A DNA stretch of 33,541 bases from Micrococcales bacterium (lineage in GTDB: Bacteria > Actinomycetota > Actinomycetes > Actinomycetales > WQXJ01), in assembly GCA_009781225.1 (NCBI GenBank), contig WQYN01000006.1:1-33541 (forward strand), given 5' to 3'. Made by a program: the position numbers and the translations under genes. Below, one piece after another: positions 1 to 18,699 of this stretch. The notes under the pieces are model-generated. The model saw only the letters and a list, made by a program, of their open reading frames with translations, made no database searches and was not told the DNA's origin. The stretch's first letter is position 1; each line of letters opens with the position of its first letter.

Positions 1-98
1 CCCGGTCGCGCTCAGCGGTCCCGGCGCTCGCGTCCGCCGCGCCGTGATTCTGGGCATGGCACCTTGCCCCGATCGTGGCGAGACGGGAGAATCACCTC

Positions 99-2246
99 AT
101 GACACGACGGACGATGACGGCACTTCTGGCCGTTGTCACGGTGCTGGGGGTTTCGGCGGCCGTGGCGACGACGGCACAGTCAGCGAGCGATGGCCACACG
201 GTCAGCCCCTGGCCACACGTCAACACCGCGCCTGACCCTGCTGGTGGGATCTATGTCTCGCCCAGCGGAAACGATGCGACCGCAACGGGGGCAGTCGGCG
301 CTCCCTTCAAGAGCATCAACGCCGCTCTGGCGACGACAAAGGCTGGTGACACGGTAATCCTGCGTGGCGGCACGTATCGGGAGGGAATCAACGTTCGAAT
401 CCGGCTGCCGAACATCACGATCAAGTCCCGGCAGGGGGAGTGGGCGGTGATCGATCTCACGACCTACGACACCGACGCCGACGAGGACTCCGGGGTGTAC
501 TTCGACGTCGGATCGTCGGGCGGCCGGCTGCAGGGGGTCGAGGTCATGGGTGGCTACTACGCCGTCGCCATGGAAACCACGTGGCGCTGGGACCCTGATG
601 ATCTGTACACGGCCGGGGCGTCAAACATTGTCATCGAAGACAACGTCCTCCACGATTCCCGGTACGACGTCGTCAAGATCAAGCCCAACTGCGACAACGT
701 CACCATCAGGAACAACGAGATCTACAACTCGGGGCGGGCCTTTGCCGGAAACCCCTTGAACGGGGAAGACAACGCCGAGGGCATCGACAACGTCAACGGC
801 GACAACATGGCGGTGCAGGGGAACTACATCCACGACATTGTCTCGAACGCGATCTACGCGAAGGGGGGCGCGACGGACGCGCTGATCGAGAAGAACTGGA
901 TTGAGACGGCGTACGGAGGAGGGATTCTCATCGGTTTCGACACGAGTGTTGACTTTTTCGATCTCGCCGTCAACCCGGAGTACTACGAGAACATCGGGGC
1001 CGTGGTGCGCGACAACTTGATCGTGGACACAGGCTGGGAGGGGATCGGCTTCTACGCCGCCAAGGACGCCGAAGTCCACCACAACACGCTGGTCAACGTG
1101 GCATTCGGAGGGTCGTACCACGCCGCCATCTACTTCGGTCTCTCGTACCAGGACTGGGATCCGGAGGCTGGCCGCCCTGCCACCGTCAATCCGAAGTTTC
1201 ACCACAACATCGTGAGCCAGCCGGCCGCCATCGTGCGCCCGATGCTGGAAATTCGCTACTCAAACGACCTGATGGGGATGTCCGCGCTCGACGGGAAGCC
1301 GTTGATGCACGACAACTGCTACCACATCAAGTCCAAGAGTGCGGTGTTCATGGACCACCGCCCGGGTAGCCCGCTGGCCTCCGGCGGAGGTCTGGCCGCC
1401 TGGCAGGCCCACATCAGCGGCGATGTCGACTCCATCGAAGCTGATCCCGATCTTGACGCGGACTACGTTCCCTCGAACCCGCTGTGTGCGGGGGTGAGGT
1501 GGGCAGAGGGCGGGCCCGGTTCCCCGACGCCGAGTGGGCCCGGTTCCCCGACGCCGAGTGGGCCTGGTTCCACGACGCCGAGTGGGTCTGGTTCCACGAC
1601 GCCGAGTGGGTCGGACACGACGAGGCCGGCCGAGCCTGGGACTACAGAACCCTCCAATCCTGGGACCGGGACGTCGACCGATACCGGCGGTGGACCGCCC
1701 GCAGCCAGCCCCGGCCAGCCCACGAACCCTCACCAGACGCCGGCCCTGAAGATCACGCGGGTAAAGGCAGGCCAGAAGGCGATCGCTCTGGTCGCGGGTG
1801 CGAGGGCGAAGGTCCCAACCTTTGGCTACTGGACCGGTGGCAAGCGGGCGCCCGTCAAATGGACGTCGTCGAAGCCTTCGGTCGCCAAGGTTTCCAAGAC
1901 CGGAGTCATCACCGCCAAGAAGCCCGGCAAGGCCACCATCCGCGCCACGGCAGCCGGCGGCAAGAAGGCGTCTATCAAGGTCGCCGTCGTCAAGGCTGCC
2001 GGCTACAAGGTTTCCCAGGTCACAGCCAACGTCCCGCGCACCATGAAGGTGGGCGCCGTCGCCTACGTGACGGGAAAGTACAAGCCGAGCACCGCGACCG
2101 GAGCAGTGGTGAAGTACTCCTCGAAAGAGAAGTCCGTCGCAACGATCGACCAAGCAGGAAGGCTGGTAGCCAAAGCGAGAGGTACCGCGACCATTCGCGT
2201 CAAGGCGAAGGGGAGGGTTGCCGAGTATCGGGTCGCGGTGAAGTAG
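99..2246 (+). CDS. Secreted right-handed beta-helix protein with Ig-like (BIG2) C-terminal domains
   Basis: Probable extracellular or wall-associated polysaccharide-binding or -degrading protein; the substrate is unknown. A Sec signal peptide (residues about 1-30, hydrophobic ALLAVVTVLGVSAAVA) is followed by a DUF1565/pectate-lyase-like start (YVSPSGNDAT, then GDTVILRGGTYREGI). Beta-helix rungs with repeated N-rich turns (IEDNVLHDS, IRNNEIYNS, VQGNYIHDI, VRDNLIVDT, VHHNTLVNV) run to about residue 450. A GSPTPSGP-type linker follows, then two BIG2-like domains (VKWTSSKPSVAKVSKTGVITAKKPG and a second near the C-terminus). The ATG at 99 is preferred over the in-frame GTG at 75 because GGGAGA at 85-90 lies 8 bases upstream. 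No catalytic residues can be assigned, so enzyme versus adhesin stays open. It is followed by a perfect inverted repeat. Confidence 0.85.
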   Translation: MTRRTMTALLAVVTVLGVSAAVATTAQSASDGHTVSPWPHVNTAPDPAGGIYVSPSGNDATATGAVGAPFKSINAALATTKAGDTVILRGGTYREGINVRIRLPNITIKSRQGEWAVIDLTTYDTDADEDSGVYFDVGSSGGRLQGVEVMGGYYAVAMETTWRWDPDDLYTAGASNIVIEDNVLHDSRYDVVKIKPNCDNVTIRNNEIYNSGRAFAGNPLNGEDNAEGIDNVNGDNMAVQGNYIHDIVSNAIYAKGGATDALIEKNWIETAYGGGILIGFDTSVDFFDLAVNPEYYENIGAVVRDNLIVDTGWEGIGFYAAKDAEVHHNTLVNVAFGGSYHAAIYFGLSYQDWDPEAGRPATVNPKFHHNIVSQPAAIVRPMLEIRYSNDLMGMSALDGKPLMHDNCYHIKSKSAVFMDHRPGSPLASGGGLAAWQAHISGDVDSIEADPDLDADYVPSNPLCAGVRWAEGGPGSPTPSGPGSPTPSGPGSTTPSGSGSTTPSGSDTTRPAEPGTTEPSNPGTGTSTDTGGGPPAASPGQPTNPHQTPALKITRVKAGQKAIALVAGARAKVPTFGYWTGGKRAPVKWTSSKPSVAKVSKTGVITAKKPGKATIRATAAGGKKASIKVAVVKAAGYKVSQVTANVPRTMKVGAVAYVTGKYKPSTATGAVVKYSSKEKSVATIDQAGRLVAKARGTATIRVKAKGRVAEYRVAVK
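1225..1237 (+). repeat. CCGCCATCGTGCG motif, exact copy 1
   Basis: Exact copy of the 13-base word inside the beta-helix gene, read there as Ala-Ala-Ile-Val-Arg. See the finding on the dispersed motif. Confidence 0.8.
1513..1608 (+). repeat. Four 24-bp tandem repeats in the linker
   Basis: Four consecutive 24-bp units (starting 1513, 1537, 1561, 1585) encode the Gly/Pro/Ser/Thr linker between the beta-helix and the Ig-like domains. Units 1 and 2 are identical; units 3 and 4 differ by a few substitutions (CC to CT, CC to CA). The unit is a multiple of three, so copy-number change keeps the frame. Confidence 0.9.
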
Positions 2247-2262
2247 CCCCCAACGCCGAGCA

Positions 2263-2319
2263 TGTGAAAACCCGACAACTAGCAGCGATGACAACGTTCT
2301 TAGTTGTCGGGTTTTCACA
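2263..2319. repeat. Perfect 19-bp inverted repeat, possible bidirectional terminator
   Basis: Arms TGTGAAAACCCGACAACTA (2263-2281) and its exact complement (2301-2319) enclose a 19-base spacer. An A-run precedes the GC-rich core and a T-run follows it, as in a bidirectional intrinsic terminator. It lies just after the beta-helix gene. The long loop is atypical for a terminator, so a protein-binding or mobile-element role is also possible. Confidence 0.7.
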
Positions 2320-2608
2320 GGCTCAGCCACTCAACGACTCGCTGCTCGGGACTGTCATCGTTGCCGCGCTGACGACTCGACCTGCAGCCGCCGGCTATCC
2401 CCACGCGGTGACGATCCCTGCCGGAGTGGCCGGACTCCCACGTTCCTCCGTTCTCAAGCCGACGGAGATCGCGACGGTCGATCGTGACCGCCTCGATGGG
2501 CCTCTTGGGTCGCTGCCGCCCGTCGTGGTGGGCGAAGTGGACCGGTGCCTGCGGTTCGCTCTGGGCCTGTAGCGACGAATAGCAGGACGGGCGGCGGTCC
2601 TCGAGCCC

Positions 2609-2614
2609 TAGAAT
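2609..2614 (+). promoter_or_regulatory. Candidate -10 for thrH
   Basis: TAGAAT about 40 bases before the thrH start; no clear -35. The expected transcript would carry the AAGGAG ribosome site at 2641-2646. Confidence 0.35.
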
Positions 2615-2653
2615 GGCTCCGATGCTGGCCCGGCAACCGGAAGGAGACTGACC

Positions 2654-3277
2654 GTGGGCATGGAAGTCATGTGCTTCGACCTCGAAGGGGTTCTTGTCCC
2701 CGAGATCTGGATCAACGTCGCAGAAGAGACCGGCATCGAGGAACTGCGTCTGACCACCCGCGATGTGCCCGTCTACGACGACCTCATGGCCTACCGGTTG
2801 CGGATTCTCGACGAACACGGCCTCAAGATCTCCGATATTCAGCGGGTTATTGCCCGCCTGCGACCTCTGCCGGGAGCGCGTGAGTTCCTGGAGTGGGTGA
2901 AGGCGAACTTCCAGGTCGTGATCCTCTCCGACACCTTCTACGATTTCGCCGAGCCGTTGATGGTCCAGCTCGACCACCCCCTACTCTTCTGCCACAACCT
3001 CGAGATCGAGGCAAACGGCCGCATCGCCAACTGGGTGATCCGCCTGCCCCGCCACAAGATGGAGGCCGTCAAGTCCCTCCAGGGCCTGAACTACACCGTC
3101 TTCGCCGCCGGCGACTCCTACAACGACACCGACATGCTCCTGGCCGCTGACCAGGGATTCTTGTTCACCCCTCCTCAAAACGTCGTCGACGAGTTCCCGC
3201 AGCTCCCAGTCGTCACCACCTACGAGGACCTCAAAGCCGAACTAATCCGCGTCTCCTCAAGGGACCTGACTCCCTAG
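2654..3277 (+). CDS. thrH: ThrH-type HAD phosphatase (phosphoserine phosphatase / homoserine phosphotransferase)
   Basis: Cytosolic HAD-superfamily enzyme of the ThrH type, known in Pseudomonas to dephosphorylate phosphoserine and transfer the phosphate to homoserine, linking serine and threonine synthesis. The 207-residue length and sequence match ThrH closely by recall. The nucleophile motif is FDLEGVLVPEIW (Asp9, with Glu11 where most HAD enzymes have Asp, a ThrH hallmark), motif II is LSDTFYDF (Ser92-Thr94), the conserved lysine region is near 136-140, and motif IV is GDSYNDTDM (153-161). The GTG at 2654 is chosen because AAGGAG ends 7 bases upstream; the in-frame ATG at 2660 would be 13 bases away. 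It stands alone, so a threonine or serine pathway context is not visible here. Confidence 0.88.
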   Translation: MGMEVMCFDLEGVLVPEIWINVAEETGIEELRLTTRDVPVYDDLMAYRLRILDEHGLKISDIQRVIARLRPLPGAREFLEWVKANFQVVILSDTFYDFAEPLMVQLDHPLLFCHNLEIEANGRIANWVIRLPRHKMEAVKSLQGLNYTVFAAGDSYNDTDMLLAADQGFLFTPPQNVVDEFPQLPVVTTYEDLKAELIRVSSRDLTP

Positions 3278-3743
3278 GGCCACGGTTGACCGTCGTGGCG
3301 AAGAAGCGGGTTGTTGTTGGGTAGTCGCCTCTCGCTCTGCCTCCTGCGCTGTCACGAGAAGGGTCGCCCTCTTGCATTAGTGGACACCTCGGGTGAGGGT
3401 GTGATATTTGTCACAGGGGCGGGACACGCGGACTTGGCGAAACGTTGTGAAATTGGTAACGAGTAATCCTGCCTTGTCTGACAGGGCACGTCAGTGTTGT
3501 CCCAGGTGAGGGATGGTTGCGGCGGGGTGGTCGGGTGAAAAGCGACGACGACCTCGCTATCGTGTGGCATGTCTCACGGTGCCGGATAGCGGGTGTTGGT
3601 ATGATCTCGGCTAACGGAATTCGTTGGAGAGTACCGTTGCCGGTCCGCCCGAGAGGGAGGGCCACCTAACCTGACCCCGTACGTCCCCAATAAGTGAATC
3701 CCCCCCCGACCCCCAATGACGCAACAAAGAACGGACCACTTCA
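3278..3743. other. Intergenic region, no gene seen
   Basis: 466 bases of lower GC than the flanks with no convincing coding frame. It contains one candidate extended -10 promoter (3597-3605), which would give a leader of roughly 130 bases for the metalloprotease gene. I saw no clear hairpin terminator or known riboswitch. Confidence 0.5.
3597..3605 (+). promoter_or_regulatory. Candidate extended -10 promoter of the metalloprotease gene
   Basis: TGG followed by TATGAT fits an extended -10 element (TGN-TATNAT). No good -35 is seen at 17 bases, which such promoters tolerate. Direction and position suit the downstream secreted protease. Confidence 0.35.
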
Positions 3744-6700
3744 ATGTCGCATGGTACCTATCACAACCGAGTCGCTTCATTTGCCGCGATCGCGGCCTTT
3801 TCCCTGATCGTTGGTGGTGGCTTGCTGCCGACTAATGCTGCTCACCCCCGGCACGATTCCGCCGCCGCGCAGTTCGCCGCGGCATCGTCAGCCCTGGTCG
3901 CGGTCGAGGGCACGGTCGTGGCGGTCGCTGGCCTGCCGGAGGATGCCCACCACCTCTTCATCGAGACCGCGCCGGGCCTGACCGTCCCTCTCGATCCCGA
4001 CTCCCTGCCCGCGCCAATCGCGCCTGGTCAGAGTGTCGCCATCACCGTCGAGGTTCCCCGCTGGGTCGTCGCCGAGGCGCCAGTCCAGGTCCCCACGGCG
4101 GACGATGGCGGTCTCCCGCGCCTTCTCGACGCAACCGACGCCGCGGGGGAGGTGCTGCTCGCAACCGCTGTCGAACTCGGCGCAGCGCTTGACATCACGG
4201 AGCTGTCGGTGCTGGCGAACCCGGTACTGACCCCGTCAATCGCCGCCGCCCCGCATGTCGTCGACATCGCCTTCCTATCGAAGGACGGGCGCGGGAAGTT
4301 CTACGGCCCCTACGAGATCACCCTGCTGTTGGGCACGCTGTCGGACTGGTGGGCCCGGGAGACCAACGGGGAAATCCCCGCCTTCGAGTACTCCTACGCG
4401 GACGCCCGGGCCGCACAGTCCACGGTGCAGTGCAGCGTCGATCTGGAGCAGATCGCCCTTGTCGGCGCTGGACTGTTTGGCCACACAAGCTATGGCCCTT
4501 ACACAGGTCCCGGTGCGCGTCGGCACCTGGTTGTCCTCTCGCCTGCTGACGAGCGGGGCGCTGGCTGCCCCGATAGCTACACCGGCGCCGCTTTCCTCGG
4601 ATCGTCAGGTCTCGCCTCGGGCGGGGTTTCCCACATAATCACCTCGACCGCGGAATCCTCACGCGGGGCGCTGATCCATGAGATCGGCCACAACCTCTCG
4701 CTGCAACATGCGAGCGCGGGAACCTGTCCTGCCCGAGTGGTCGACGCTCCCCTGGAACCGGCTGGCCAGCCCTGCACGGCCGCCAGCAACTACGCGGACG
4801 ACTTCAATATCGAGGGGGCGGCGGCCTCCTGGGGCACCACCGGTCTCAACGGGTTCCAAAAGACCAAGCTGGGGCTCTTGACCAAGGCATCCCCGCAGCT
4901 CAAGGTGATTGACACCGTGGGCTCCCAGGATGTGACCCTGCGCGATGTCTCCCGTGCCTCCGGCTCGGGGGTCGAGGCACTCCAGGTCGTCGAGACCGTG
5001 GGAGCTACGAAACGGGACTACTGGATCGAGTACAGCTCCGGAGGGGTTCACGTTCGCCGCGGCTACCGCGCTGAGGATCCCACGCTGCCCTACCCCGTCG
5101 GGAACGTAGCGGAGACGTGGGTACTCAGCCCGGAAGGCTCAGGTCCTTCCACAACGCAGCGGTTCACCGTCGGCCAGGGCTTCTCCTCCGACGGTGGCGG
5201 ACTGAAGTTCCGGGTCGACCAAGTGACGTCAGACCAAGCGCGCGTCCATGTTGAACTGGGCGCTGCCCCGACGCCGTCGATCTCGTTGTCCCAGTCCTCC
5301 TGGTCGCCGGCCGGAGGGTCGTCGAACGTTCGCCTCACCGTGACGACCAACCAGTCGTGGTGGTCGGCCACCTCGGATGAGCCCTGGGTCACCGCCTTGC
5401 CCATCCACGGGGGCAATGGGGCAGAGTTGTCGCTGTCCGCCTCAGGGAACACGACGGGCGCGCCTCGGTCCGCGATCATTACGGTCGCCGCGGGCGGGGC
5501 GAGCGCGAGAGTCACGGTCACGCAGGCAGCCCAGGAGCCGAGCGTGTCGTTGGCATACTCCTCGTGGTGGCCTGGCGCGGAGGCATCGAGCAACGGTGTC
5601 AGAGTCTCGACGAACCAGGCGACGTGGTCAGCTTCATCGGATCAGTCGTGGATGACGATGTCGCCAGCAACGGGCGCGAACGGGGACATCATGTGGGTGT
5701 CGGTGACGCCCAACACCTCGACGACGGCTCGCTCGGGCACGGTGACCGTGGTCGTTGACGGCGCACGGGCCACGCTCCCGGTTACGCAGGAAGCCTTCCG
5801 GCCGAGCCTCAAACTCACGCCATCGTCCTGGTCAACGGGGGTGAACGCCGGCAGCACGGGCGTGATCGTCGAGACCAATCTGCCCTCGTGGTCGGCGTCG
5901 TCGAACCAGTCCTGGCTCACGGTCCTCTCGCCATCGGGCACCACCGGACAGACGATGACGGTCTGGGTTGACGCCAACACCTCGACCTTGGCGCGAACGG
6001 GAACGGTGAGTGTGACAGCCAACGGCACCTCGACGCTGCTCACGGTGACCCAGACGGGCGTGACCGAAAGCGTCTCGCTTTCGCCCTCGTGGTGGTCCGC
6101 GGGTGGGCAGGCGGGCAGCCAAACGGTCGTGGTCTCGACAAACCGGCCACTTTGGACGGCGTCGTCGAACCAGTCGTGGCTCACCCTCTCGCCCACCTTG
6201 GGCCTAAACGGGCAGACGATGACGCTCCAAGTCGCGGCGAATCTCTCGCCTTTCTCCCGCTCGGCTGTTGTGACGGTGGTGGCCGGCGGCGCGAAGTCAA
6301 CTCTCGCCGTGGTGCAGGCGCCTGGGTCGGCGAGCGTGTCGCTGTCGCCGCCATCGTGGTCGCCCAGTGGAGAGTCGGACAGCACGCAGGTGTGGATCAC
6401 GACGAACCAAGCCTCCTGGTCAGCGTCGTCGAACCAGTCCTGGCTCACCGCCACGCCTTCCTACGGCGCCAACGGGCAGGTCCTGTCGTTGTCAGTGTCT
6501 GCGAACCCCGTCGCCGCGCCCCGATCAGCCACGGTCACGGTCGTCGCGGGCGGTGCGAGTGCGACGGTGTCGGTGACGCAGGCGGCGGGAACACCGGTGG
6601 AGCCGAGTGTGCAGCTGCCCTTTGCGTCGTGGGAGGCACCGGCGACCCCGGAGAGCCTGGGCGTAGTGGTCTCGACAAACCAAGCCTCCTGGTCGGCGTC

Positions 6701-7727
6701 GTCGAACCAGTCCTGGCTCACCCTCTCGTCAGGAACAGGGCAAAGTGGGCAGACCCTGACCGTTTCGGTGCCGGCCAGCACGGTGAGTTCACCGCGGTCG
6801 GCGACCGTAACGGTCACGGCCGGCGGCGCTTCGGCTACGTTGTCGGTGGTTCAGGCGGGAATGGCGCCGAGCGTGACGCTGCCCTTCACCTCGTGGTGGT
6901 CGGGCACGGATGCGGCAAGCACGGGGGTGGTTGTCTCGACGAACCAGTCCTCGTGGTCGGCGTCGTCGAACCAGTCGTGGCTGACCGTATCTCCCTCGAA
7001 CGGCGCAAACGGGGCGACGATGTGGGTGTACACGTCGGCGAACGCTTCAGGCCTGGCGCGCACTGCGACGGTAACCGTGACGGCGGGCGGGGCGACCGCG
7101 ACCTTATCGGTGACCCAGGCGGCGGGGGCTTCGGTCTCCTTGTCGCAGTCCTTGTGGTCGCCGGGGACGAACGCGGCGAGCACCGGAGCGGTCGTCTCGA
7201 CGAATCAGTCGTCCTGGTCGGCGTCGTCGAACCAGGCCTGGCTCTCCGTCGCGCCTTCCACCGGCCCCAACGGAGGGACGCTGACGGTCGCGGTGTCGGA
7301 GAACACCTCGACCTCGGCGCGCTCGGGAACCGTGACGGTGCGCGCGGGGGGAGCCCTAGCCACGTTGTCGGTGACGCAGGCGGTTCCGTCGTCCTGCACC
7401 TCCTTCGCCTCGGCGTGCTCGTGGAACCTGTCTCCGGTCGTCGTCTCGCCCGCGGGGGCGACGTTCCACTACCTGAAGTTCACCGCGCCCGTGTCTGGCG
7501 TCTATACCTTTGAGTCCTCGGGGCGTGGGGTGAACAGCGATCCCTACGGTGCGTTGTATGCCGCGGACCAAAGCCAAATCACCTACAACGACGATGGCGC
7601 GGGGAACCTCGAGTTCAGGATCACGGCCCCGCTGATCGCAGGTCAGGTCTATTACCTGGCGGCCCGGCACTACTCGAGCATTCGGGAAGGATCGTTCACG
7701 GTCAGCGCCCAGGTCCCGGGCAGCTGA
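3744..7727 (+). CDS. Secreted metzincin-like zinc metalloprotease with eight BACON domains
   Basis: Large (1327 residue) exported protein. Residues 1-33 are a signal peptide (AAIAAFSLIVGGGLLPTNAA). A propeptide-like region leads to a metalloprotease domain whose zinc motif HEIGHNLSLQH (His312, Glu313, His316, His322) has metzincin spacing and resembles peptidase M11, but Ser replaces the usual Gly. The expected Met-turn (YGDPFDxMG in relatives) reads YADDFNIEG, with Glu357 at the Met position. From about 510 to 1215 there are eight BACON-type beta-sandwich repeats of about 88 residues, each with TNQ.SWSASSNQSWLT and ARSGTVTV.AGGA..TLSVTQ. The last 100 residues (FHYLKFTAPVSGVYTFESS) resemble a pre-peptidase C-terminal domain. 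Likely a surface or secreted protease binding glycans or mucins; no membrane anchor or sortase motif is visible. No good ribosome site precedes the ATG. Confidence 0.85.
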   Translation: MSHGTYHNRVASFAAIAAFSLIVGGGLLPTNAAHPRHDSAAAQFAAASSALVAVEGTVVAVAGLPEDAHHLFIETAPGLTVPLDPDSLPAPIAPGQSVAITVEVPRWVVAEAPVQVPTADDGGLPRLLDATDAAGEVLLATAVELGAALDITELSVLANPVLTPSIAAAPHVVDIAFLSKDGRGKFYGPYEITLLLGTLSDWWARETNGEIPAFEYSYADARAAQSTVQCSVDLEQIALVGAGLFGHTSYGPYTGPGARRHLVVLSPADERGAGCPDSYTGAAFLGSSGLASGGVSHIITSTAESSRGALIHEIGHNLSLQHASAGTCPARVVDAPLEPAGQPCTAASNYADDFNIEGAAASWGTTGLNGFQKTKLGLLTKASPQLKVIDTVGSQDVTLRDVSRASGSGVEALQVVETVGATKRDYWIEYSSGGVHVRRGYRAEDPTLPYPVGNVAETWVLSPEGSGPSTTQRFTVGQGFSSDGGGLKFRVDQVTSDQARVHVELGAAPTPSISLSQSSWSPAGGSSNVRLTVTTNQSWWSATSDEPWVTALPIHGGNGAELSLSASGNTTGAPRSAIITVAAGGASARVTVTQAAQEPSVSLAYSSWWPGAEASSNGVRVSTNQATWSASSDQSWMTMSPATGANGDIMWVSVTPNTSTTARSGTVTVVVDGARATLPVTQEAFRPSLKLTPSSWSTGVNAGSTGVIVETNLPSWSASSNQSWLTVLSPSGTTGQTMTVWVDANTSTLARTGTVSVTANGTSTLLTVTQTGVTESVSLSPSWWSAGGQAGSQTVVVSTNRPLWTASSNQSWLTLSPTLGLNGQTMTLQVAANLSPFSRSAVVTVVAGGAKSTLAVVQAPGSASVSLSPPSWSPSGESDSTQVWITTNQASWSASSNQSWLTATPSYGANGQVLSLSVSANPVAAPRSATVTVVAGGASATVSVTQAAGTPVEPSVQLPFASWEAPATPESLGVVVSTNQASWSASSNQSWLTLSSGTGQSGQTLTVSVPASTVSSPRSATVTVTAGGASATLSVVQAGMAPSVTLPFTSWWSGTDAASTGVVVSTNQSSWSASSNQSWLTVSPSNGANGATMWVYTSANASGLARTATVTVTAGGATATLSVTQAAGASVSLSQSLWSPGTNAASTGAVVSTNQSSWSASSNQAWLSVAPSTGPNGGTLTVAVSENTSTSARSGTVTVRAGGALATLSVTQAVPSSCTSFASACSWNLSPVVVSPAGATFHYLKFTAPVSGVYTFESSGRGVNSDPYGALYAADQSQITYNDDGAGNLEFRITAPLIAGQVYYLAARHYSSIREGSFTVSAQVPGS
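5275..7383 (+). repeat. Tandem ~264-bp repeats encoding BACON domains
   Basis: Eight coding repeats. The marker word TCGAACCAGTC or a close variant recurs at 5901, 6165, 6429, 6702, 6966 and 7227, i.e. spacings of 264, 264, 273, 264 and 261 bases. Nucleotide identity is high around the SASSNQSWL segment, so recombination between units is likely. The repeats also generate long spurious frames on the opposite strand. Confidence 0.9.
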
Positions 7728-15142: not shown

Positions 15143-16075
15143 TCATACCGTTTGCGGGCTTGGCGGTGCCTCTAGAAACGTGACCGGGGCTAGTTCGATG
15201 TGGCGGCCAGCGATCACCTGGCCTTCGTCGCCACTGATAAGGCGCTTGTAGTCTGCGGTCCGAGAGGTGACGACAAACTGTGCTTCCTTGTCCTCGTTGA
15301 GCGCACGAATGACCGCCGTCGAATCCTCGGCCGGCATCTCGCCGAGTCCGTCGAGGATGGGAAGGATTCGCCGCTCTTCGACGAGGCGAGCAACCACCTC
15401 GGGCTTGCTCCTGGCGTTCTTGCCGACCTGGTTGGCAAGCCAGGACCGGAAGTGCTCGGTCACTGCGGTGTCGCCACCCTGTTCCAGGTCGACGTCAGGA
15501 TGGTAGCTGGTCAGCGGGACCCAGACAGGGACCTGCTGGGGCCGCTCTCCCGGACTGGTCGGATCTGCGAGGAGGTCGAGCAACAAGTACGAAGCCGTAA
15601 CAGTCTTACCTGAACCGGGTTCGCCCACGATCACAAGACGCTGGTCTTTCAGACTTCGGAAGTAGTCGCCGATGGTGGCGAGCGTGCCCTCGACCTTCTG
15701 GCCGCCCTGATGCCCGCGCAGCAGAATCCCCTCCGCGTCCGGGGGAAGAACACCTCGTCCCGGAGGGCCGAACCCCACATCCGCTACCTGGGCAAGGTGG
15801 CCGCGCCTGCGCGTGAACCGCGTCGAAGACTCAAGGAAACGTGCTCTATCACGTCTACCCATCCGGCGTAGCGTGGTCAACGCTGCCTCAGGAGACTGAG
15901 ACACCTGACTGGTACGCAGCCTCCCGAGAGCGATCACGGCGCCGAGCAGCGTCAGAGGAACAGTGATCAGGGCAGTCGGATCAGAGTCTGGCCATATCCT
16001 TCTGCCAAAGAACAGCCCTCCAGCGGAGCACGCCACGACAGCCACCGCTGACAGTACCCATTCACGCTTTCTCAC
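15143..16075 (-). CDS. Truncated membrane-anchored NACHT-domain NTPase
   Basis: 310-residue protein with two N-terminal membrane helices (about 7-24 and 34-51), a linker, and a NACHT-type P-loop domain. Walker A is VGEPGSGKT (150-158) and the Walker B region is RILPILDGLGEM (236-247); Gly replaces the second Asp of the usual LDGLDE. Sensor-like FVVTSR is at 267-272. The frame stops shortly after HIELAPVTFLE with an unrelated tail (APPSPQTV), just where family members continue for hundreds of residues. NACHT proteins belong to the STAND class and some act in phage defence, but this one lacks any sensor domain. It starts with GTG from a leaderless-type promoter. Its 3' end abuts the vapBC toxin stop. 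Confidence 0.75.
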   Translation of the reverse strand: MRKREWVLSAVAVVACSAGGLFFGRRIWPDSDPTALITVPLTLLGAVIALGRLRTSQVSQSPEAALTTLRRMGRRDRARFLESSTRFTRRRGHLAQVADVGFGPPGRGVLPPDAEGILLRGHQGGQKVEGTLATIGDYFRSLKDQRLVIVGEPGSGKTVTASYLLLDLLADPTSPGERPQQVPVWVPLTSYHPDVDLEQGGDTAVTEHFRSWLANQVGKNARSKPEVVARLVEERRILPILDGLGEMPAEDSTAVIRALNEDKEAQFVVTSRTADYKRLISGDEGQVIAGRHIELAPVTFLEAPPSPQTV

Positions 16076-17070: not shown

Positions 17071-17126
17071 ACGGTGCTGGTGAAAGCGATGTCAAGCACG
17101 GGGCGCGGGCCTCGAAGACTGGACGA

Positions 17127-17226
17127 TGGCCGCAAGGTTGCCTGGACTTTGGCCGCAAGGGTGCCTGGACGTTGGCCGCATGGTTGCCTGGACTTTGGCC
17201 GCAAGGGTGCCTGGACTTTGGCCGCG
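17127..17226. repeat. Four 23-bp tandem repeats plus partial unit
   Basis: Units of about TGGCCGCAAGGTTGCCTGG plus four bases start at 17127, 17150, 17173 and 17196, with a partial fifth at 17219. Copies alternate between GGTTGCC and GGGTGCC. The 23-base period is not a multiple of three, so it is unlikely to encode repeats of a working protein. Each unit contains the small dyad GCAAGG-TTGC. There are no unique spacers, so it is not a CRISPR array. Confidence 0.9.
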
Positions 17227-17452: not shown

Positions 17453-18556
17453 CTAGGGAATGATCGACAAGAAGATGAAGGTCGCTAGCAACACCAGGTG
17501 AAGGGCGCCGTGGAGCGTTTTGGCTCGCCCGGGAACCACGGTCAGCACGGAGACGATGGCGGAGGTCATCAGGAGCGTGATGTGCGTCGGCTCTAGCCCA
17601 AGCCTCAGGGGGCCGGGAAGCCAAATCGAGGCGATGGTCAGGGTCGGGATGGTGAGGCCGATGGAGGCCATGGCAGATCCGTAGCCGAGGTTCAGGGCGA
17701 TCTGGGTGCGGTTCTGGGCAGCAGCTCTCACGGCGGCAATGGACTCTGGCATGAGGACGACCAGGGCGAGGACCACGCCGACAAAGGATGGAGGGAAACC
17801 CAGCCAATTGACGCCCGCTTCTATCGCGGGGGATTCGACCTTGGCGAGCCCCACGACCGCGACCAGCGACACCGGGAGCAGGATCAGGCTCACCACGGTC
17901 GCGTGCCAGGTGGGCTGACAGGCGTGAGGGCCGTCATCGTCCATATTTGCGGTCTGGGGGGTGGGGAGGAAGAAGTCGCGATGGCGCACGGTCTGCGTGA
18001 CAACGAAGGCTGCGTAGAGGACGAGGGAGGCGACGGCAGCGAAGGCCAGCTGCCCGGAGGCGAAGATCGGGCCGGGGTGGGAGGTGGTGAACTGGGGGAG
18101 GATGAGGGTCAGCGAGGCAAGGGCGATGACGGTGCCAAGGGCCGAGCCGGCGCCTTCGGGGTTGAAGACGGCGAGGCGGTACTTGGCGGCGGCTGTCAAG
18201 AGCGAAAGACCCACGATGCCATTCATCGTGATCATGACGGCGGCGAAGACGGTGTCTCGGGCGAGAGTCGAGGTGTCGCCCTTGCCGGAGACCATGAGCG
18301 TGACGATTAGGCCCACCTCGATCACGGTGACGGCCACCGCGAGGATAAGCGAACCGAAGGGTTCGCCGACGCGATGGGCGATCACCTCGGCGTGGTTGAC
18401 GGCAGCCAAGACGGCTCCCACCAGGAAGATTGCCTCGATAAGGAGGATCGGCGGGGCGAGGTTCTTGCCCCAGGAGGGAAGCAGGGCAGCAAAGCCGAGG
18501 GCGGGCGCGAGCGTAGTCCAGCGCAACAGGGTGCGCGGCGGAGCCCCAACCGTCAT
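17453..18556 (-). CDS. chaA: Ca2+/H+ (or Na+/K+/H+) antiporter, CaCA superfamily, ChaA type
   Basis: 367-residue integral membrane protein with about eleven helices, predicted to export Ca2+ or monovalent cations in exchange for protons. Two inverted family repeats are visible: HAEVIAHRVGEPFGSLILAVAVTVIEVGLIV (about 55-85) and VVLALVVLMPESIAAVRAAAQNRTQIALNLGYGSAMASIGLTIP (about 265-310). Both carry the conserved acidic residues (HxxExxxxxxGEP..ViE and MPES) of ChaA/Cax proteins. ATG 18556 is chosen because a -10 element ends 7 bases upstream; the longer frame adds 42 low-complexity residues. It is divergent from the PLP lyase gene. Confidence 0.88.
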   Translation of the reverse strand: MTVGAPPRTLLRWTTLAPALGFAALLPSWGKNLAPPILLIEAIFLVGAVLAAVNHAEVIAHRVGEPFGSLILAVAVTVIEVGLIVTLMVSGKGDTSTLARDTVFAAVMITMNGIVGLSLLTAAAKYRLAVFNPEGAGSALGTVIALASLTLILPQFTTSHPGPIFASGQLAFAAVASLVLYAAFVVTQTVRHRDFFLPTPQTANMDDDGPHACQPTWHATVVSLILLPVSLVAVVGLAKVESPAIEAGVNWLGFPPSFVGVVLALVVLMPESIAAVRAAAQNRTQIALNLGYGSAMASIGLTIPTLTIASIWLPGPLRLGLEPTHITLLMTSAIVSVLTVVPGRAKTLHGALHLVLLATFIFLSIIP

Positions 18557-18563
18557 GGGTGAC

Positions 18564-18569
18564 ACTCTA
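18564..18569 (-). promoter_or_regulatory. -10 element, leaderless promoter of the antiporter
   Basis: TAGAGT on the minus strand, 7 bases before the ATG at 18556, no ribosome site. The dispersed motif at 18581-18593 lies 11 bases further upstream, over the -35 region. Confidence 0.5.
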
Positions 18570-18580
18570 ATCCGGTGGGA

Positions 18581-18593
18581 CGCCATCGTGCGC
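18581..18593 (+). repeat. Dispersed motif, near-exact copy (one mismatch)
   Basis: ACGCCATCGTGCGC within the chaA-lyase intergenic region. Together with the copy at 18631 it extends to GGG(A/C)CGCCATCGTGCGCAG(T/C)GCG, so these two are longer relatives of each other. Confidence 0.75.
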
Positions 18594-18633
18594 AGTGCGG
18601 GGGAAGCGGGAGGGGCGGCGGGGCGCGGAAGGG

Positions 18634-18646
18634 CCGCCATCGTGCG
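18634..18646 (+). repeat. CCGCCATCGTGCG motif, exact copy 3
   Basis: Core of a longer match (GGGCCGCCATCGTGCGC, 18631-18647) in the intergenic region, 53 bases upstream of the lyase -10. Confidence 0.8.
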
Positions 18647-18699
18647 CAGCGCGCCGTGCGCGGGTGTGGACGCCGGGCACACGGGCCAGCCGAACCGAC

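Follow-up and report, generated by a model that had tools for sequence, protein, structure and literature searches.

The window analysed here is a stretch of 33,541 nucleotides from a Micrococcales bacterium (assembly GCA_009781225.1, contig WQYN01000006.1, below contig C6). It encodes, at 3744..7727, a protein in which a metzincin-like domain precedes eight BACON domains and in which glutamate (Glu357) takes the place of the methionine of the Met-turn. Comparison with homologues widens this single case into a recurrent replacement of Met by Gln or Glu, including a conserved clade that carries Gln; at the level of aligned sequences, this wider finding holds.

Loss of the Met-turn methionine

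The Met-turn methionine has been described as absolutely conserved in metzincins (PMC1266349). The first-pass annotation placed a metzincin-like domain ahead of the BACON array and considered it unusual on two grounds, namely Ser for Gly in the zinc motif and Glu357 at the Met-turn position. Both residues are where it put them. The zinc motif HEIGHNLSLQH (residues 312-322) is complete for the three zinc-binding histidines and the general-base Glu, with Ser in the Gly place, and Glu357 (GAG, 4812) stands in an alignment column occupied by Met in the majority of relatives. As to how unusual they are, the two grounds fare differently: Met is kept in 117 of 130 homologues, whereas Ser for Gly is ordinary, being present in 29 of the 130 (including L147 and the zinc-dead G015_C339). 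A standard Met-turn elsewhere in the protein was also sought. Methionine occurs only at residues 1, 637, 639, 650, 738, 826, 1040, and 1093; as there is none in residues 2-636, the catalytic region contains no other Met-turn, and a second Met serving in this role was rejected.

The 13 homologues lacking Met have Gln (ten), Glu (two), or Leu (one). Glu is found in the window protein and in its paralogue C53 (GAA, on another contig), both from the source genome. Gln is found in a third paralogue, C50b, and in nine proteins of f9 and f10, two other families of the order (L188, L195, L199, L214, L216, L218, L220, L222, and L227), while Leu belongs to a distant Bacteroidota protein (L031) whose alignment is uncertain, so that the residue may be an artefact. 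All 12 Met-less homologues from Actinomycetota have Glu or Gln, and none of their codons (GAG, GAA, CAA, and nine CAG) is one base from ATG; the residues that are one base change away from ATG are I, K, L, R, T, and V. The side chains of Glu and Gln are as long as that of Met, and the restriction to these two residues therefore suggests selection on side-chain shape. All three Met-less paralogues (the window protein, C53, and C50b) still have the zinc ligands and the general base.

The window protein lacks the methionine that defines metzincins, yet it sits in the phylogenetic trees among Met-bearing relatives. In a 45-row tree, the nine Gln rows of f9 and f10 group with six Met rows in a 15-row clade; the Met rows are interspersed among the Gln rows, which could reflect either a single loss followed by a regain or at least two losses. 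The nine members come from nine genomes, have an intact zinc motif, and show GPQ, SLQ, or SIQ at the turn; since they span nine genomes of two families, a non-Met turn appears to have been kept through speciation. The 12 Met-less rows need five changes on this tree, four of them forced by supported branches, and some may be regains. In a 97-row tree from which the weaker matches were absent, five changes were forced across six rows. By parsimony, at least three losses of Met are implied: in the window/C53 group, in C50b, and in the Gln clade. The nearest paralogue of the window protein differs by tree, being the Met-bearing C64 in one (98/97) and C53 in the 97-row tree (93/60), while the order of these three is left open in the 45-row tree; the window protein and C53 may therefore share one loss or have lost Met separately.

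The census covers 130 different sequences, assembled as a first set of 38, a further 59 genes, and finally 33 weaker homologues. The weak loci L097-L102 were left out, and so was G530:C1:1421135-1421707, the latter half of a gene represented by L172; L134 and L135 duplicate G025 and G024 and were removed, and the genes of L132, L133, L141, and L157 were already in. L147 was read individually (Met, Ser), and the stretch fetched for L176 contained no motif. Met is missing from three of the six paralogues of the source genome as against 10 of the 124 other homologues (Fisher p=0.013, uncorrected for kinship). The 33 weaker homologues brought seven more Gln cases, all in f9 or f10, with which the p-value moved from 0.0025 to 0.013 and the forced losses fell to three. 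A link between the loss of Gly and the loss of Met, apparent in the smaller sets (3/3 versus 5/35, p=0.007; 4/6 versus 23/91, p=0.049), was dropped because only one of the seven further Gln cases lacks Gly.

Domain layout and the state of the active site

The window protein is probably a secreted, modular metzincin-like protein with the following layout (positions of the window).

3744..7727, + strand: whole open reading frame (ORF) of 1327 residues, with ATG start and intact frame; metzincin-like domain, eight BACON domains, PPC-like C-terminal domain
3744..3842, + strand: probable Sec signal peptide, about residues 1-33, recognized by eye from a hydrophobic stretch and an Ala-rich cleavage region
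3879..4238, + strand: N-terminal region, about residues 46-165, conserved in the paralogues and in most aligned relatives of the same family; may be a prodomain
4239..5273, + strand: catalytic domain of metzincin-like type with the region after it, about residues 166-510, from alignments, sub-cut-off Pfam matches, and the family profile
4677..4709, + strand: zinc motif HEIGHNLSLQH, residues 312-322 (His312, Glu313, His316, His322)
4791..4817, + strand: Met-turn segment YADDFNIEG, with Glu357 in the Met column (codon GAG, 4812-4814)
5274..5537, + strand: BACON unit 1
5538..5801, + strand: BACON unit 2
5802..6065, + strand: BACON unit 3
6066..6329, + strand: BACON unit 4
6330..6602, + strand: BACON unit 5
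6603..6866, + strand: BACON unit 6
6867..7127, + strand: BACON unit 7
7128..7382, + strand: BACON unit 8, also covered by a structure model
7383..7724, + strand: PPC-like C-terminal domain, with homologous copies in other frames of the genome

In Pfam, the catalytic part gives only weak matches below the cut-offs (Reprolysin_3, Reprolysin_5, M43, and M66). The window protein has no match to M11 (PF05548) at E up to 1, a family reached below the cut-off by 2 of the 17 homologues of alignment A2 (best E 0.054). Neither the window protein nor the homologue set matches the M60-like PF13402 at E up to 1, and an NCBIfam search of the window protein gave no match. A family profile of the catalytic domain reaches serralysins, ADAMs, and the chains 8DEK and 8DF2, around the motif region only. 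The structure model of the catalytic region, built from a four-row alignment (the window protein, L131, L032, and L031), has a mean predicted local distance difference test score (pLDDT) of 39.5. The PPC assignment relies on a protein with homologous copies (L061) that passes the PF04151 cut-off (26.7 versus 25.9 bits), while the window protein's own copy has no Pfam match. Neither an LPXTG motif nor a C-terminal membrane helix was seen by eye at its C-terminus.

With M11 (gametolysin)-like and OgpA-like metzincins, the window protein shares the HExxHxxxxxH motif and probably secretion, and most of its relatives share the YGDxxDVMG-type Met-turn; it differs from them in having Glu for Met and a BACON array, and the similarity of its family to solved structures is confined to the motif region. 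OgpA was reported as an O-glycopeptidase annotated as M11, at a time when no structure of that family had been solved (PMC7518263). We lean slightly towards a working metzincin of this broad kind, with an isosteric turn residue and BACON as a spacer. The exported protein might be kept latent by its conserved N-terminal region. Glu357, as long as the Met it replaces, would pack under the zinc site and might form a hydrogen bond with one of the zinc-ligand histidines. Zinc binding and proteolysis would thereby be preserved, though stability or pH dependence might differ, and the substrate might be some extracellular protein or glycoprotein.

A broader and distinctly more tentative proposal is that of Glu/Gln-turn metzincins as a natural variant. 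The hallmark Met would have been lost at least three times in one order and replaced only by the length-matched Gln or Glu, with zinc site and selection kept; the carboxylate or amide would provide a second-shell contact to a zinc His, and Met would be replaceable in nature at the price of a shifted pH or metal dependence. MMP-2 is reported to accept Leu or Ser at this position, and protease C to accept Leu, Ala, or Ile with compromised kinetics (PMC1266349). No natural Glu or Gln at the Met-turn was reported in the titles or abstract openings searched, which is no claim of absence.

Constraint on the genes was assessed by the ratio of nonsynonymous to synonymous divergence (dN/dS, NG86). It is 0.27 for window/C64, 0.32 for window/C53 and window/C4, 0.38 for C64/C53, 0.28 for C50b/C50a, 0.25 for C50b/C4, and 0.32 for the Met-bearing pair C50a/C4, all rough values because dS is above 1 (1.08-1.64) for own-genome pairs; a further Met-bearing pair, G005_C47/C155, gives 0.15. 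These ratios indicate that the six-gene paralogous group is under purifying selection. Fifty-nine near-invariant family columns were defined from nine sequences, leaving out G008_C414 (truncated), G015_C339 (zinc-dead), and G002_C3. The Met-less paralogues keep 41 (window), 43 (C53), and 36 (C50b) of these columns, and the Met-bearing ones 43 (C64), 40 (C4), and 44 (C50a). Gene decay, with no clear sign in dN/dS or in these columns, was rejected. The open frame of G015_C339 (L068; G015:C339, about 64-3723, + strand) keeps the Met of the Met-turn with a zinc motif degraded to RAFGFNLSLKN; its dN/dS is 0.46 versus its sister, it keeps 49 of the 59 columns, and a homologue with an intact zinc motif (L067) is present in the same genome.

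Several points weigh against a working enzyme with a substituted turn. Besides the high dS and the score of the Met-less C50b, the lowest among the six paralogues, the family can evidently yield zinc-dead members such as G015_C339. The placement of Glu357 under the zinc comes solely from the alignment. In C53, the residue just before the turn position is a Met (NMEG); as G005_C227 and G004_C57 carry Met in both positions, Met may have slid on the C53 branch. Glu itself is limited to this genome, at 2 of 130 homologues, and the conserved non-Met clade carries Gln rather than the charged Glu. In Erwinia protease C, replacement of Met226 by His, Ser, or Asn is reported to have given proteins too unstable to isolate (PMC1266349), so a polar or charged turn residue may not be tolerated.

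The alternative that survives best is a pseudopeptidase, in which Glu357 cripples catalysis and the protein only binds its target while the Met-bearing paralogues cut. The concentration of Met-less members in the source genome (3/6, subject to the kinship caveat above), the relative that lost its whole zinc site, and the instability of polar substitutes in protease C would all agree with it. Against this, the three Met-less paralogues retain zinc ligands and general base, there is no clear relaxation of constraint, and the substitutes in Actinomycetota are Glu or Gln in 12 of 12 cases. The known ADAM pseudopeptidases resemble the window protein in being metzincin relatives with an altered active-site region, but they show the reverse pattern, losing zinc-motif residues and typically keeping Met (PMC11266112). 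We consider a pseudopeptidase unlikely, if worth keeping in mind.

The BACON array and the remaining alternatives

The eight repeats had been annotated as BACON, and their possible membership of another Ig-like family was tested. The profile search gives BACON (PF13004, E=5.2e-88, 289.4 bits against a cut-off of 25) over eight stretches. A model of unit 8 with the PPC-like domain, built on alignment rows all taken from the window, has block means of pLDDT 95-98 over the first 80 residues of the unit and a weak PPC-like part (block means 43-67). The best solved match of the unit 8 model is 3ZMR, a BACON-bearing GH5 enzyme (root-mean-square deviation 1.3 Å over 90 columns). On profile and model, the repeats are genuine BACON domains. 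The Bacteroides ovatus domain in 3ZMR has the same fold at 21% identity; there, BACON precedes the glycosidase.

In the preferred reading of a working metzincin, the array would serve as a long stalk or spacer, keeping the catalytic domain at a distance from an attachment point, and not as a set of eight lectins. A rival is an adhesive mucin or glycan degrader, in which BACON binds glycans and directs the protease to O-glycoproteins, as proposed for the Bacteroides M60 enzymes. The family profile does reach 8DEK (E 0.025) and 8DF2 (E 0.029), which we take to be structures of AMUC_1438, but these matches are weak and span about 50 profile positions round the zinc motif. Among metzincins, OgpA and AMUC_1438 act as O-glycopeptidases (PMC7518263, PMC9513282), and BACON accompanies M60 peptidases in Bacteroides (PMC3267712). 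The M60-like mucinases BT4244 and HC11 also combine a zinc peptidase with BACON (PMC3267712, PMC13003899), but they are gluzincins with one or two BACON domains and CBM32, whereas the window protein has a metzincin-like domain followed by eight BACON. Their mucin cleavage is nearly abolished by mutations in CBM32, to which the window protein has no Pfam match. According to PMC13003899, carbohydrate binding by BACON has never been demonstrated, and a spacer role has been suggested there and in PMC11216935. A glycan-directed degrader thus seems improbable.

The repeats had further been called near-identical and predicted to vary in copy number. Neither claim stands up. The units follow each other at a tandem spacing of 261-273 bp with a DNA identity of 50.9-72.2% between units (mean 62.7%) and a protein identity of 33.8-70.1% (mean 53.1%); identity to one reference copy is 62-72%, and the longest exact stretch common to two units is 32 bp. 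Across the four paralogue pairs covered by the best-partner analysis (C53 was left out), units pair by position: from C4 to C50b 8/8 are in register (reverse 7/8), from window to C64 5/6 (reverse 4/6), and from C4 to C50a and from C50b to C50a 4/4 each (reverse 3/4 each). The permutation p is <=0.0026 for each pair and <=0.0007 for C4/C50b and window/C64. Because units pair by position between paralogues, the array is older than those gene duplications; with repeats that are not near-identical, copy-number variation is not predicted. Judging from the intact frames, the unit number is stable in three paralogues (window, C4, and C50b, eight each); C53 has five, and the frames of C64 (six units) and C50a (four units) run off contig ends. 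A spacer of fixed length would fit units that stay in register.

A phylogeny of the units agrees in part. The tree of 64 BACON units has few columns and leaves 32 of its 61 inner branches open; it joins units 1, 2, and 3 of the window protein with those of C64, and units 1 to 6 of C4 with those of C50b, by position, while window unit 4 crosses to C64 unit 6 and window units 7 and 8 are unplaced. The units of the window protein, C4, C50b, and C64 do not cluster by protein, whereas those of C53 and of some enzyme-less proteins do. With all 13 BACON proteins taken together, somewhat more clustering by protein is seen than expected (41 changes versus a shuffled mean of 48.5). C53 (L057, G000:C53, 5251-10455, - strand) has five BACON units and seven PPC-like copies. 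Its units 3-5 seem to be recent duplicates, a feature that sets this array apart from those in the remaining paralogues.

A young, expanding array with a copy number that varies between strains might be read from the regular tandem spacing, the 32-bp exact stretch, the later-looking copies in C53, and the excess clustering over 13 proteins. It is very improbable in view of the low identity, the in-register pairing (8/8 and 5/6), and the equal counts of eight; recent tandem amplification was rejected on the identity values, the tree of units, and the in-register pairing. An assembly or sequencing error at codon 357 would be conceivable in a genome of 254 contigs, but it is practically negligible, as GAG is two positions off ATG within an intact frame of 1327 codons and Glu (GAA) also occupies this column in a paralogue from a different contig.

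Source genome and distribution

The source is a metagenome-assembled genome (MAG) of 2.56 Mb in 254 contigs, 93% complete, in which a search for 16S rRNA gave no match. The actinobacterial context assumed in the first-pass annotation is borne out by two WhiB genes, one of them on contig C4 together with a peptidase-BACON paralogue; as the two share a contig, contamination of the MAG was rejected. This genome holds 68 BACON matches, which are spread over 13 contigs and fall in 16 open frames; for one of these frames, on C72, the protein scan listed no family, which points to a weak domain. The catalytic domain is present in six frames, the five others being 60, 53, 48, 46, and 45% identical to that of the window. 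The other ten BACON frames have no enzyme domain at E up to 0.01; several have PPC-like repeats, and together they represent a large BACON/PPC repertoire.

That BACON is uncommon in actinobacteria also agrees with our counts (E <= 0.001). The domain is rare in the phylum sample, where it is found in 2 of 296 genomes including the source genome (1 of 295 besides it). Within the family, 14 of 18 genomes have it, counting the source genome, as do 20 of 396 genomes of the order, 13 from the same family and seven others with one or two matches each, three of which pass the cut-off. Bacteroidota hold 87% of BACON proteins, and 929 BACON_2 proteins have already been counted in Actinomycetota (Hameleers et al., PMC11216935). 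The catalytic profile matches 10 of the 18 family genomes, 15 of the 296 phylum-sample genomes (many weakly), and 88 of the 396 order genomes at E <= 1e-9; in this last set at most four candidates were scored per genome, so its list of matches is a lower bound. Among the matches listed, none of the 78 non-family genomes with the catalytic profile is among the seven non-family genomes with BACON; since these lists do not overlap, the catalytic domain combined with BACON is seen in this family only among the sampled genomes. A scan of genome contigs found two distant relatives, viral contigs gave one, and a plasmid search with the catalytic domain gave no match. BACON matches in phages comprise 11 records, ten of them named Bacteroides phages and one unnamed, at 28.5-37.5% identity, and these 11 matches give no sign of phage transfer here.

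The neighbourhood looks chromosomal, with genes in the window for a class II tRNA synthetase, Dus, HD (dgt-like), DnaG, ZnuA, and ABC-3 proteins. At 75-2246 (+ strand) lies an ORF for a secreted-looking beta-helix protein with Big_2 domains, in which a 24-bp tandem repeat (1512-1610) encodes a linker rich in Gly, Pro, Ser, and Thr. The ORF at 15143-16075 (- strand) has a match to a NACHT-type NTPase just above the cut-off (29 versus 26.7 bits), and a 23/46-bp tandem repeat array (17119-17225) lies directly downstream of a Na/Ca-exchanger-like ORF (17453-18682, - strand).

Until now, the role of the Met-turn has been probed mainly with mutants. The Met, Glu, and Gln paralogues of this one genome constitute a natural series for testing it, and the Gln clade elsewhere in the order, one member of which (L188) is in a one-contig genome (G635), offers further natural test material. 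The family to which the organism belongs thereby emerges as an actinobacterial lineage rich in BACON, where the domain is fused to a metzincin-like one.

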